Source of the DNA: Alphaproteobacteria bacterium
Lineage (GTDB): Bacteria > Pseudomonadota > Alphaproteobacteria > Micropepsales > Micropepsaceae
Assembly: GCA_016783965.1 (NCBI GenBank)
Contig: JADHVO010000001.1
Coordinates: forward strand, 248,001 to 312,000
Direction: 5' to 3'
Length of the DNA: 64,000 nucleotides
Part shown: in pieces, positions 59,392 through 63,570 of the stretch
Position numbering within the stretch: the first letter of the stretch is position 1
How the letters are laid out: the number at the start of each line of letters is the position of its first letter
Position numbers and translations under genes: made by a program
Notes under the pieces: generated by a model
Told to the model about the DNA's origin: nothing
The model's input: only the letters and a program-made list of their open reading frames with translations
The model's database searches: none

Positions 59392-60113
59392 GCATTCTTG
59401 AAGTCGAAGAGATCGGCGAAATCCGGCGCGTGGTCATGAACCGGCCGGAGCGGCTGAACGCGCTAAACCAGCCGATGGCGGAGGAGCTGCTCAGATATTT
59501 CGAGGCGCGACGGCGCGATACGGCGGCGCGGGTGATCATCCTGACCGGTGCGGGACGCGGCTTCACGGCGGGTGCCGATCTGAAGGCGCTGGGCCAGGCG
59601 GACGCGCTGCAGGACGGGCCGAACGGCGACTGGACCCTGCGCGACGTGATGAAGGCGATGCGGGCGTGTCCGCAGCCCATCATCTCGCTGGTGCGCGGCC
59701 CGGCGGCGGGCGGGGGCCTGGCGCTCGCACTCGCCAGCGATGTGATCGTGGCGGGCGAGAGCGCCGTGTTCCACTCGGCCTTCATCAAGATCGGCCTGAG
59801 CGGCGCGGAGCTGGGTGCGGCGTGGCGCCTGCAACGCACGATGGGCATCTCGCGGGCGCGCGAGGCGCTGCTGACCGGGCGGCCGATCGACGCGCAGGAG
59901 GCGTGGCGCACCGGACTGGTGTCGTCGGTACTGCCGGATGCGGCGCTGGACGCGCATGGACTGACCCTGGCGAAGGCGATGTGCGAGGCGCGGCCGGATG
60001 CCTTGCGTCTGACGAAGCGGTCGCTGGATGCGGGGCTGGAGATGGGCAGCGACGCGGCGATGGAACTGGAAGAACGCGCCCAGATGCTGATGATCGCGCG
60101 CCGGCCGCGCTGA
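59388..60113 (+). CDS. enoyl-CoA hydratase/isomerase family protein
   Basis: A 241-residue crotonase-fold protein: RVVMNRPERLNALNQPMAEEL, the oxyanion segment GAGRGFTAGADLKAL, GPAAGGGLALALASDVIVAGESAVFHSAF, and the family stretch RPIDAQEAWRTGLVSSVLP. It is coupled to gph by a 4-bp overlap. Related to the one at 564-1301 by fold, but not closely by sequence. The acyl-CoA substrate is unknown. Confidence 0.88.
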   Translation: MSILEVEEIGEIRRVVMNRPERLNALNQPMAEELLRYFEARRRDTAARVIILTGAGRGFTAGADLKALGQADALQDGPNGDWTLRDVMKAMRACPQPIISLVRGPAAGGGLALALASDVIVAGESAVFHSAFIKIGLSGAELGAAWRLQRTMGISRAREALLTGRPIDAQEAWRTGLVSSVLPDAALDAHGLTLAKAMCEARPDALRLTKRSLDAGLEMGSDAAMELEERAQMLMIARRPR

Positions 60114-60119
60114 TAGCGG

Positions 60120-61049
60120 CTAGTGGAGGCTAAAACGGACGATGGCCTGATGGCCGGGTGATGCGACCGGCTTGCCGCCCTGCATGGCGGGCCAGTTACG
60201 CCATCGCGTTCCGACGCAGACAACCGCGGCCTGATCGAGGCGATCCGAGCCGCTCGTTCGCACGACGCGGACGTTCATGATCACGCCATTGGCAGCGATA
60301 TCGTATCCGACCAGGACATCGCCGGACTCGCCTGTTGCCCGCGATTCCGAAGGATAGAACTCGGTGCAGTCGTGCGTATCGCCGATGGCGCGCGCCGGTG
60401 CATTGCCGTTAGCATCGACGATGGGGCCGTCGACCTGACGGTGGGCCACGTGCCCCTGCTGCTCGGCGCCGCCCGCATCCGTCGAAGGTGGTTGCAGTGC
60501 CCCGGGCGGCGGCGCCAGTGCAAGCGGCACGGCATCGGCGATGGGACCCTCGATCGTGAAGGCGTGCTTGCTGTTGTCGATGGACCAGCGATGCAGGCGT
60601 GCCAGGAAGCTCTGGCCCAGAAGCAAGGCGCCGTCGGGCGGAGCAATCGCCGCCGCGACGTTCGAAATGACGAAGTTGCCGATCTGTAGCTTGTGGATCA
60701 TGACGACGGGCGACCGGTGCGCCGAGCCGTCTGCCAATCGATATTGCTGTTCGCCCTGGAGATCCTGCTGCGAAAGCGCACCGGTCCGCATCAGGGTCGA
60801 GGCGACGTCGGCGGGAATGGTCACCACCGATGCGCCGCTGTCGACCAGGAAGTCCATGGTGATCGTGTCATTGATGCGGACGGGCAGCGCGTACACACCG
60901 CCCGTTGGATGCAGCGGCACGTCTTCCGCCGAGCAGATCGACAGCGGGCCGAGGATGCCAGTGGCCGCGAGCTGAATGGCCAGCAGGCGCAGTGCGCGGC
61001 GCAGGTGTCTGATCAACGGCACTCGCCCCCGGCCGAATATCGCCGTCAT
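60120..61049 (-). CDS. retropepsin-like aspartic protease fused to TonB-C-like domain
   Basis: A 309-residue protein. The N-terminus has an uncleaved signal or signal-anchor (LRLLAIQLAATGILGPL), then a clan AA retropepsin-like motif with the catalytic Asp in DFLVDSGASVVTIP (D70), and LLLGQSFLAR, the flap/core segment of the fold. After a Pro/Gly-rich linker the C-terminal ~85 residues (GDVLVGYDIAANGVIMNVRV, then RTSGSDRLDQAAVVC) look like a TonB C-terminal domain. ATG 61049 is used. Secreted or periplasmic; function unknown. The fusion is unusual. Confidence 0.75.
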   Translation of the reverse strand: MTAIFGRGRVPLIRHLRRALRLLAIQLAATGILGPLSICSAEDVPLHPTGGVYALPVRINDTITMDFLVDSGASVVTIPADVASTLMRTGALSQQDLQGEQQYRLADGSAHRSPVVMIHKLQIGNFVISNVAAAIAPPDGALLLGQSFLARLHRWSIDNSKHAFTIEGPIADAVPLALAPPPGALQPPSTDAGGAEQQGHVAHRQVDGPIVDANGNAPARAIGDTHDCTEFYPSESRATGESGDVLVGYDIAANGVIMNVRVVRTSGSDRLDQAAVVCVGTRWRNWPAMQGGKPVASPGHQAIVRFSLH

Positions 61050-61203
61050 TTCATTTGCCCCCGCTCGCGGGGAGAGCATTTCACCAACTGATGACGGTCT
61101 GCAATCCAAAGTCGAGCGTCGAAAGGGCTGAGGCGAGAATGGTGGCCAGACAGGGACCAAACCCGCGACCACCATTGATTCTTAAGGGAATCCGGTTGCC
61201 GCC

Positions 61204-61232
61204 TTGACGGCCTACGGCGGCAACTTTATACG
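61204..61232 (+). promoter_or_regulatory. sigma-70 type promoter for tRNA-Val
   Basis: TTGACG (61204-61209), 17-bp spacer, TATACG (61227-61232), about 18 bp before the tRNA start. It matches the alphaproteobacterial housekeeping consensus well for a stable RNA gene. Confidence 0.6.
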
Positions 61233-61249
61233 GCTGCTCCCTCTAGAGA

Positions 61250-61324
61250 GGGCGCGTAGCTCAGCGGGAGAGCACTCCCTTCACACGGGAGGGGTCACAG
61301 GTTCAATCCCTGTCGCGCCCACCA
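61250..61324 (+). tRNA. tRNA-Val (CAC)
   Basis: A 75-nt cloverleaf reads from GGGCGCG: acceptor stem GGGCGCG/CGCGCCC, D-arm GCTC...GAGC, anticodon stem CTCCC/GGGAG with loop TTCACAC (anticodon CAC), variable GGGTC, T-arm ACAGG-TTCAATC-CCTGT, and encoded ACCA end. The anticodon CAC decodes GUG, so tRNA-Val. The promoter lies just upstream. Confidence 0.95.
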
Positions 61325-61455
61325 TGCCTCGCACCGAACATCTGCTCAGGCCTCACCGAGCGCGGGTCGCTCGGGCTGGCGCCGGGTTTGTGGGCGTCAG
61401 GGCAGCGTGCCGCGATTGTGTATCGCAGTCGCGGTTTCGAGCTCTGCAAAAAAAC

Positions 61456-61469
61456 TTGACCGGAATCAA
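61456..61469 (+). promoter_or_regulatory. FNR/FixK-like box upstream of the cytochrome-porin operon
   Basis: TTGAC-CGGA-ATCAA matches the FNR/FixK/Crp-type consensus TTGAT-N4-ATCAA with one change. It sits 52 bp upstream of the cytochrome-porin start. Such boxes place genes under low-oxygen control. No -10 can be fixed by eye, so the exact promoter geometry is unknown. Confidence 0.5.
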
Positions 61470-61521
61470 CAGTTCCGAGCGGCTTCCCTCCACACTTCCA
61501 CACGAAACAGGGAGCTGTTCG

Positions 61522-62862
61522 ATGCGATCGGTGTCGTCGTGGATAATCGGTGTGGGGATGCTGGCGGCGGTAACAGCCGCCCTCACCACTTCTGCCGAGG
61601 CTGTGCCGGCTTTCGCCGAGCAGACAGGACAGCCGTGCAGTGCCTGCCATGTGGGTGCTTTCGGACCTCAGCTCACACCGTTCGGCCGAGCTTTCAAGCT
61701 CGGCGGATATACGATGCGTGCCGGCGATCAGTTCACCAATCCGGTCTCTGCAATGGCAATCATGTCCTTCCTGAACACGGCAAAGGACCAGGCCGCACCG
61801 CCCGCCCCGCACTACGGGGTCAACAACAACGCCACGATCGACCAGATCAGCCTGTTCATTGCGGGCGGCATCGACGACACCTTCGGAGGATTCTCACAGT
61901 TCACCTATGACGGCGTGGGCCGCGCCTTTTCCTGGGACAATCTCGACCTGCGGGCGGTGACGAGCGGGACTTGGCTGAACGTGCCAGTACAGGCGGGCCT
62001 CAGCCTGAACAACGCGCCCGGCATGCAGGATGTATGGAATACGATCCCGGCCTGGGGCTTCCCGTACACCAAAAGCAATCTTGCGCCTGCGCCGGCTGAA
62101 GCCACGATCTTTGATGGCCGGCTGGCACAACATGTGCTGGGCTTCACTGCCTATGCTGATTGGGACTCGCACGTCTACACCGAGGCCTCGTTCTACTGGT
62201 CGCCGGGCCGCCATTTTCTGAGCACGCTGGGTAGCGGCGAGGGCGTCGGCCGCATCACGGATGTCGCGCCCTATCTCCGCGTGGCGTGGCACGACGACCG
62301 GGGGGACGACAACTATGAAATCGGGGCGTTTTTCTTCCGGCCCGATCTCTATCCGGGCGGCGATCCGACAACCGGCACGTCCGATCTCTACACCGATCTC
62401 GGCGTCGATGCGTCCTACCAGTACACCGGCGACAACAGCAGCATCTACGGCGCGAACCTGCGCTACACATACGAGCATCAGCATCTGGCCGCGACCACGA
62501 TCCTGGGCGGCGCCACGAATCTGAATGACAATCTGAACGAGCTCAACGTCGACGCTTCCTATTACTGGCAGAATGAAATCGGAGGGACGGTCGGGTTCTT
62601 CGACAGCTGGGGTACGAGCGATCCGCTGCTTTACGGCGCCAGCGCGACGGGCAAACCGGACAGCGCGGGTTTCATTGTTCAGGTCGACGGCACGGCGTTC
62701 GGCCGCGACATGGAAATCCTGGATGGGCGATTCAACGTGCGGCTGGGCTTGCAATACACGGCCTATACCAGGTTCGACGGTGGCACGACGAACTACGACG
62801 GCGCCGGCACCAACGCTTCCGACAACAACACGCTCAGGGTCTTCCTATGGACGGCACTCTGA
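61522..62862 (+). CDS. Cyc2-like fused monoheme cytochrome c/outer-membrane porin candidate
   Basis: A 446-residue exported protein. Signal peptide at residues 1-27 (VGMLAAVTAALTTSAEA); then a single heme site CSACH at residues 39-43 within VPAFAEQTGQPCSACHVGAF, followed by PQLTPFGRAFKLGGYT. The remaining ~380 residues alternate hydrophobic and polar residues and are rich in Tyr, Asp, Gly and Asn (SFYWSPGRHF, EIGAFFFRPDLY, YGANLRYTYEH, LNVDASYYWQ), as in an outer-membrane beta-barrel. This architecture matches Cyc2 cytochrome-porins, which oxidise extracellular Fe(II). The barrel and the Fe function are inference. ATG has AGGGAG upstream; HiPIP and cupredoxin genes follow. Confidence 0.7.
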   Translation: MRSVSSWIIGVGMLAAVTAALTTSAEAVPAFAEQTGQPCSACHVGAFGPQLTPFGRAFKLGGYTMRAGDQFTNPVSAMAIMSFLNTAKDQAAPPAPHYGVNNNATIDQISLFIAGGIDDTFGGFSQFTYDGVGRAFSWDNLDLRAVTSGTWLNVPVQAGLSLNNAPGMQDVWNTIPAWGFPYTKSNLAPAPAEATIFDGRLAQHVLGFTAYADWDSHVYTEASFYWSPGRHFLSTLGSGEGVGRITDVAPYLRVAWHDDRGDDNYEIGAFFFRPDLYPGGDPTTGTSDLYTDLGVDASYQYTGDNSSIYGANLRYTYEHQHLAATTILGGATNLNDNLNELNVDASYYWQNEIGGTVGFFDSWGTSDPLLYGASATGKPDSAGFIVQVDGTAFGRDMEILDGRFNVRLGLQYTAYTRFDGGTTNYDGAGTNASDNNTLRVFLWTAL

Positions 62863-62894
62863 GCTCCGAACCCAACCTGCGAAAGGGCGACACG

Positions 62895-63167
62895 ATGAAC
62901 AAGACCAACCCCACCACCGCGGTCTCTCGCCGGCAAATGCTGCGGAGCGCAACCGTCACTGCGTGCGTTGCGGCCGCGCTTGTTGCCACAACAACCCAGA
63001 GCGCTCAGGCAGCCCAGGTAACACAGGCAGCCGCCGGCTATCAGCCCACACCGAAGGGCGATCAGCGCTGCGACAACTGCGCGCTATTCCAGGCGCCGTC
63101 GTCTTGCAGGTTCGTCTCCGGCGACATCAGCCCTGCGGGCTGGTGCAAGCTTTACGCGAAGAAATAG
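62895..63167 (+). CDS. high-potential iron-sulfur protein (HiPIP)
   Basis: A 90-residue periplasmic electron carrier. The N-terminal Tat signal is SRRQML (residues 11-16) followed by a hydrophobic, Ala-rich stretch ending near AAQ. The 4Fe-4S Cys set is C59, C62, C71 and C84 (CDNC, SSC, GWC), the HiPIP pattern C-x2-C-x8-C-x12-C. HiPIPs shuttle electrons at high potential, e.g. to photosynthetic reaction centres or cytochrome oxidases, and one acts in Acidithiobacillus iron oxidation (Iro). It lies between the cytochrome-porin and cupredoxin genes on the same strand. Confidence 0.92.
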   Translation: MNKTNPTTAVSRRQMLRSATVTACVAAALVATTTQSAQAAQVTQAAAGYQPTPKGDQRCDNCALFQAPSSCRFVSGDISPAGWCKLYAKK

Positions 63168-63225: not shown

Positions 63226-63570
63226 ATGTTTGGAGCCGTCATAGCCCATCGCGGCCTATTAGCGGCGTTGGCCTTTCTGCCAATGCTCGTTGCACCTGCC
63301 GTCGCTGCGGAGCGCTACGTCGATCAACACGATCTGATGTTCGTGCCCACGAGCATGACTATCAAGGCCGGTGATACGGTGCGTTTCACCGACACCGACC
63401 GCATCACGCACAACATCACCATAGTCAACCCCGATGGCTCGACCGAAGACAAGGGAATGAGCACATACAGCCAGCACATCGTGGTGCAGTTCGACAAGCC
63501 CGGCATCTACAAGGTGATCTGCCGCATCCATCCCGACATGAAGATGACGATAACGGTGGAGAAACCCTGA
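63226..63570 (+). CDS. cupredoxin (plastocyanin/amicyanin-like type 1 copper protein)
   Basis: A 114-residue secreted protein with signal peptide (LLAALAFLPMLVAPAVAA). Probable copper ligands: His62 (THN), Cys99, His102 and Met105 in CRIHPDM, the C-x2-H-x2-M spacing of the amicyanin type. It is a one-electron periplasmic carrier. Following the cytochrome-porin and HiPIP genes, it fits a chain moving electrons between the outer membrane and the respiratory chain. ATG 63226 is preceded by GGGAGGA. The partner is inferred from the neighbours only. Confidence 0.92.
   Translation: MFGAVIAHRGLLAALAFLPMLVAPAVAAERYVDQHDLMFVPTSMTIKAGDTVRFTDTDRITHNITIVNPDGSTEDKGMSTYSQHIVVQFDKPGIYKVICRIHPDMKMTITVEKP

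Follow-up and report, generated by a model that had tools for sequence, protein, structure and literature searches.

A retropepsin-like aspartic protease and a TonB C-terminal domain joined in one gene of an alphaproteobacterium

The fusion gene and its genomic setting

The stretch of DNA analysed here, referred to as the window, comprises 64,000 nucleotides of an alphaproteobacterial genome of the family Micropepsaceae. Its minus strand carries a complete open reading frame (ORF) of 309 amino acids (P0001, positions 60120–61049), which starts with ATG at 61049 and stops at 60120–60122. Four parts follow one another along the protein: a signal-peptide-like segment (residues 1–41; 60927–61049), a retropepsin-like domain (residues 42–168; 60546–60926), a Pro/Ala/Gly-rich linker (about residues 169–222; 60384–60545) and a TonB C-terminal domain, TonB_C (residues 232–308; 60126–60356). 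The presence of both domains in one intact ORF is confirmed. A longer reading from an in-frame start at 61175, which would place 42 residues ahead of the signal-like segment, is unlikely. An ORF-calling artefact was rejected, both domains being strongly supported, and an assembly chimera is judged unlikely. Compared with its nearest relative in the genome, one half is 40% and the other 55% identical, too little for either to be a mis-joined copy of that relative.

The neighbours of P0001 are SIS/GATase (glmS-like), hexapeptide NTP transferase (glmU-like), HAD and enoyl-CoA hydratase genes and a tRNA-Val gene (CAC; 61250–61324, plus strand), the last of which is conserved in the congeneric genome G019. 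A 1,091-bp stretch (60112–61202) containing P0001 alone is missing from the matching junction of G019, in which the blastn blocks 59750–60111 and 61203–61325 stand 3 bases apart and the hydratase gene (89% identical) adjoins tRNA-Val. Gain of P0001 in the window's genome would be a simpler explanation than loss in G019, because only the window's genome shows a full-length match among the matches listed from 69 genomes of the genus; no matching junction was found in an outgroup. Judged from these comparisons, the presence of the gene is recent or patchy. No convincing repeats were seen at the edges of the insert, the terminator scan at the gene was empty, an Rfam scan of the DNA revealed no family besides tRNA, and no promoter-like site was found upstream, this last being a weak test at the present G+C content. 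Phage origin was rejected, since there was no PHROGs match and no phage match, and viral contigs gave two pattern matches with none confirmed.

The region beyond the tRNA gene also differs from that of G019, so that the tRNA-Val flank is variable on both sides. The gene past tRNA-Val (61204–62862) encodes a CSACH-type motif and has no Pfam match; a small twin-arginine-like exported Cys-rich protein (62847–63167; HiPIP-like by eye, no Pfam match) lies beside a cupredoxin (63226–63570; PF00127, 1.4e-10).

The two domains and the N-terminus

The protease half matches PF13975 (gag-asp_proteas) over residues 56–151 with an E-value of 2.8e-16 and 60.3 bits (curated cut-off 28.2), and PF13650 with an E-value of 2.4e-15. 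Its NCBIfam score for TIGR02281 (clan_AA_DTGA), 53.8 bits, is slightly below the curated cut-off of 57.95, as is that of the retropepsin paralogue L003 of the same genome (50.1 bits). Modelling with 34 aligned retropepsin rows gave block-mean pLDDT values of 89–98 for residues 41–170; this alignment held no TonB rows, which is why the C-terminal half was modelled poorly in that run. The top Foldseek match of this half in the PDB is APRc of Rickettsia conorii (5c9f; E 1.7e-8, TM 0.71 by target length), and further matches are retroviral and Ddi1 proteases. Profile, model and fold thus bear out the retropepsin-like aspartic protease of the original prediction, and the aspartic motif that it read as DFLVDSGAS is present, with DSGA at residues 70–73 (60831–60842, minus strand). 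Proteolytic activity is plausible from the sequence, because D70 is invariant in all 34 rows of the retropepsin alignment and the second hydrophobic-Gly motif is retained (LLLGQS at 142).

For the tail, PF03544 gives an E-value of 1.1e-14 and 55 bits (curated cut-off 24.6) and reaches the last residue but one, and the NCBIfam model tonB_Cterm gives 42.5 bits (cut-off 27.1). The last 122 residues, modelled with 37 TonB_C rows, have a mean pLDDT of 88.2. All 13 Foldseek matches of the tail in the PDB with E ≤0.001 are TonB-type C-terminal domains, and they include the receptor-bound complexes 6i97 (FoxA-TonB), 9dc4 (TbpA-TonB) and 2gsk (BtuB-TonB). What had been described as a region resembling TonB is therefore a true TonB_C domain with firm statistical support; both domains exceed the Pfam curated cut-offs, and structure prediction of the two halves confirms a retropepsin and a TonB C-terminal fold. 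Within the tail, Cys228 (60366–60368) and Cys278 (60216–60218, both minus strand) are found together in 32 of the 37 TonB_C rows and are both lacking in the other five, a single one occurring in none. Such strict co-occurrence points to a probable disulfide, consistent with the periplasm, an oxidizing compartment. The intervening linker has low pLDDT; the Pro and Gly by which it had been characterized are indeed present (nine and seven in 62 residues), but Ala is commoner (12).

The N-terminus consists of a basic stretch (RHLRR), hydrophobic residues 22–40 and the sequence CSA-ED, in which cleavage after residue 41 is possible by eye; the model has a helix at residues 12–29. Over 19 residues the hydrophobic segment, which is free of His, has a KD value of 1.69, falling within the range of signal peptides (1.20–1.80) and near that of transmembrane (TM) anchors (1.77–2.57); these ranges overlap, and hydrophobicity alone cannot separate a cleaved from an anchored N-terminus. 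Of the membrane-targeting N-terminus proposed originally, the hydrophobic segment stands, and a signal peptide is the preferable reading of it.

Among known retropepsins, APRc (5c9f, 5c9b and 5c9d) comes structurally closest to the protease half; however, the two are only 22% identical, and TonB_C is absent from the titles of the APRc PDB entries. An autotransporter role of APRc is disputed (PMC10414592). RloA of Pseudomonas is an exported bacterial retropepsin, but it is placed in another Pfam family, and the portion of its description cited here mentions no TonB_C (PMC12239564). No rloB or rloC domains were found in the seven neighbouring ORFs of P0001 that were scanned, two of which lack any Pfam match.

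Ancestry and rarity of the fusion

A tree built from 37 TonB_C rows places the tail of P0001 with the genome's own TonB (L002), with L004 of the same genome and with L012 of the relative G051 (support 92/95), and pairs it with L012 (support 96/73). The tail is 55% identical to the own TonB over residues 177–309, and 66% over the aligned TonB_C part. On this sequence evidence the tail is derived from the lineage's own TonB. The branch of the own TonB is short (0.016) and that of the fusion long (0.32), which indicates that the transducer has been conserved while the fused copy is evolving faster. L012 resembles P0001 in its signal-like N-terminus and in lacking the TonB anchor, but its partner is TPR rather than a protease.

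L002 and P0001 share the C-terminal domain, the final RFSLH and the cysteine pair. In contrast, the place taken by the protease in P0001 is occupied in L002 by a His-bearing TM helix and a D-box-like motif, and two exbB/exbD-like ORFs (recognized by eye) follow L002. TonB is described as requiring an N-terminal helix with an SHLS motif, the His of which touches the motor, and an ExbD-binding D-box (PMC10907165; the SHLS motif also in PMC12204202). The TM-segment His is present in all three canonical TonBs of the genome (L002, L072 and L073), whereas the hydrophobic segment of P0001 has none. The L002 sequence PEELKAEVVQP fits the published D-box pattern (PMC10907165). A scan of P0001 with this pattern found no match, but the pattern has low sensitivity, missing L072 and L073 as well, so that less weight falls on the absent D-box than on the lack of His. 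There is no exbB or exbD among the neighbours of P0001, although unlinked exbBD genes may still partner it. Because these motor-coupling parts (TM His, D-box-like motif and adjacent exbBD) are absent, P0001 was rejected as a TonB energy transducer.

The protease half is a member of a broad family of alphaproteobacterial proteins, in the tree of which it lies on its own long branch with no donor picked out; its highest identity is to a MORN-retropepsin protein from a Beijerinckiaceae MAG (51% over 127 columns).

The window's genome has nine TonB_C matches, and 13 PF13975 matches (11 over the cut-off) in 10 ORFs according to our count from listing plus translations. In this genome TonB_C occurs fused to TPR (L005) and to MORN (L080), and relatives of the genome carry further TonB_C-TPR fusions (L012 and L045); in L004 TonB_C ends a 392-amino-acid ORF without other Pfam matches. 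Retropepsin partners include MORN (L053), Sel1 (L049), TPR (L059), PG_binding_1 with LprI (L055) and SH3 with DnaJ (L048), the domain-partner scan covering ten proteins. MORN and TPR are thus partners common to TonB_C and retropepsin, and P0001 joins the two domains directly. Its occurrence in L005, L080, L004, L012 of G051 and L045 of G019 suggests that TonB_C is an envelope module of general use in the genus. In addition, L032 of G036 has two TonB_C domains within one open frame, and the TonB-like ORFs L006 and L007 lie side by side on contig C5 of the window's genome.

In G050, G051, G052 and G019, relatives that have only the retropepsin part are encoded roughly 0.1–3 kb from a divergent TonB_C gene. 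The first three of these genomes share a block of groES-groEL, a divergent TM-anchored TonB_C gene, a retropepsin gene and an ORF of about 168 amino acids (L094–L097, L099); the block is partial in G019, where the stretch analysed contains no groEL. In the genome of the window, this block retains its TonB_C gene, but the retropepsin relative is found on contig C8. As a link between retropepsin and TonB_C this neighbourhood was set aside as weak, since the block looks vertically inherited and was counted as one event. Retropepsin matches with in-frame stops reported within the matched stretch were seen in L014, L015, L048 and L050 (G027, G055, G447 and G449); these matches may run past the gene end.

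No second fusion like P0001 was found in the genus among the matches listed (69 genomes; E up to 1e-3, listing to near 1e-8). The family and order searches spanned one common set of 96 genomes. Across the class, the full protein matched six of 385 genomes at E 1e-22, one of these matches being the fusion, and the protease half matched 12 places in 11 of 385 genomes at E 1e-8; across the phylum, 20 of 398 genomes matched at E 1e-12. At the cut-offs used, neither the 385 nor the 398 genomes yielded a second fusion, the full-protein runs scoring, in each genome, just the first five or six candidates, with the risk of missing divergent fusions. A collection of genome contigs, from which the window's own record was possibly excluded, gave 94 pattern matches and nine confirmed loci, none a fusion.

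Domain-trimmed profiles applied to 127 loci revealed 50 distinct ORF sequences with retropepsin, 45 with TonB_C and two with both, namely P0001 and the Hymenobacter monticola plasmid protein WP_243520725.1 (502 amino acids, annotated 'energy transducer TonB'). The latter matches PF13650 (7.7e-8), PF13975 (5.1e-7; best stretch 254–345) and PF03544 (1e-8; 433–499), and its NCBIfam scores are below the cut-off for both domains. As in P0001, a retropepsin domain with the DSGA motif precedes TonB_C; however, the two proteins are only 24% identical over 268 aligned positions, and WP_243520725.1 has an additional N-terminal part of about 235 residues. Its TonB_C is of the Bacteroidota type, its matches in the plasmid collection being Bacteroidota records, and on an alphaproteobacterial TonB_C profile its E-value is no better than 0.0067. 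Because its TonB part matches Bacteroidota, while the P0001 tail nests in its own genus, the two are apparently separate fusions. A retropepsin-like gene (L047) was also seen on OY726032.1, a 15-kb plasmid of the gut Bacteroidota species Phocaeicola massiliensis.

The open-access literature gave no description of the pairing by title or abstract start. Both domains are known; their combination is rare and probably arose more than once. The original prediction that it is uncommon agrees with these counts; its suggestion of looking for the same fusion in other genomes produced no further copy in the genus, class or phylum at the cut-offs used, and one counterpart in Hymenobacter.

Proposed role of the fusion protein

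We tentatively propose, at somewhat less than even confidence, that P0001 is an aspartic protease secreted to the periplasm, with a TonB tail that serves for docking alone, likeliest at TonB-dependent receptors. Retropepsins are active as homodimers. P0001 would be an exported, soluble periplasmic enzyme of the retropepsin type that works as a homodimer, and its docking tag would be a TonB_C domain that split off from the TonB of the lineage and is attached by a flexible linker. Since the membrane helix of TonB and the ExbD-binding box are absent, the tail would bind and could not pull. The TonB C-terminal domain binds Ton-boxes by strand addition, and ligand binding exposes these boxes (PMC10907165, PMC9022066). 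Docking would thus most likely take place on TonB-dependent receptors of the outer membrane, at their Ton-box or plug face; the 17 receptor plug domains of the window's genome are candidate sites. The protease may then act on the tails of receptors, on cargo bound to them or on envelope proteins nearby. We infer export, dimer, activity, docking target and substrate alike. Exported bacterial retropepsins can be physiologically important, as described for RloA (PMC12239564), and that the two domains were apparently fused a second time, independently and in the same order, argues for a useful pairing. Several findings count against this proposal: the genomes searched contain P0001 only once, the weak test for an upstream promoter-like site was negative, and its codon score of 0.136 per codon (0.073 in the TonB_C half, 0.214 in the protease half) is low for the window, compared with 0.221 for the hydratase and 0.346 for the glmS-like gene, as in young or little-used genes.

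The original prediction was of a periplasmic sensor, or a protease connected to TonB-like partners. The sensor is unsupported, and a role in cell-surface signalling was rejected: despite its 17 plug domains, an STN signalling domain was not found in the genome (the control was detected in four of 14 genomes). A protease with TonB_C stands; its likely partners are receptors and not TonB, because TonB_C binds the Ton-boxes of outer-membrane receptors.

Receptors may not be the sole address, since peptidoglycan binding has also been proposed for free TonB C-terminal domains (PMC9022066). That proposal, the TonB_C fusions to TPR (L005) and MORN (L080) in the same genome, and the retropepsins joined elsewhere to MORN, Sel1, TPR, PG_binding_1 and SH3/DnaJ would suit a tail that anchors the protease to the envelope or peptidoglycan, as a general protein- or wall-binding module like those partners; the tail, however, stays close to the true transducer and forms no separate subfamily in the TonB_C tree, and we consider this reading rather unlikely. 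Overexpressed periplasmic TonB C-terminal domain inhibits TonB function. A tail so near to the own TonB and without motor-coupling parts could likewise compete for Ton-boxes and lower receptor-dependent uptake as a dominant-negative regulator, the protease being secondary or cleaving TonB or the receptor tail. The catalytic motif is fully kept, however, and the neighbours of P0001 offer no link to an iron or receptor operon, which makes such a regulator unlikely.

Two further readings seem to us very unlikely, and about equally so. The tail might raise dimer formation of the protease, given that retropepsins need to dimerize, that RloA forms dimers (PMC12239564) and that dimers of the TonB C-terminal domain have been reported (PMC9022066); yet the genus has retropepsin-only relatives without any tail (L003, L009, L010, L013 and L041). 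Or the fusion might be a young accident, its tail without specific function and kept by drift, as its single occurrence among the matches listed for the genus, its insertion relative to G019 and its low codon score would suggest. Against this, the reading frame and the catalytic, structural and cysteine positions are intact in a protein whose protease half shares no more than 51% identity with any tree row, and a second fusion exists in Hymenobacter monticola.

As ligand binding exposes the Ton-boxes, a docked protease could in principle read ligand occupancy. Receptor-addressed proteolysis, in which a target would be cut only at ligand-loaded receptors by means of a motor-uncoupled TonB tail, and which would have evolved separately in Alphaproteobacteria and Bacteroidota, is an idea that we hold to be distinctly improbable as a whole. 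The TonB C-terminal domain is usually seen as the working end of the motor; here, and in several further proteins of the same genome, it appears to have been cut loose and joined to other modules, in P0001 to a protease whose active-site motif is intact. If the tail of P0001 still finds Ton-boxes, the fusion would represent a natural route for sending an enzyme to outer-membrane receptors, and a reminder that labels of 'energy transducer TonB' based on TonB_C alone can be wrong.
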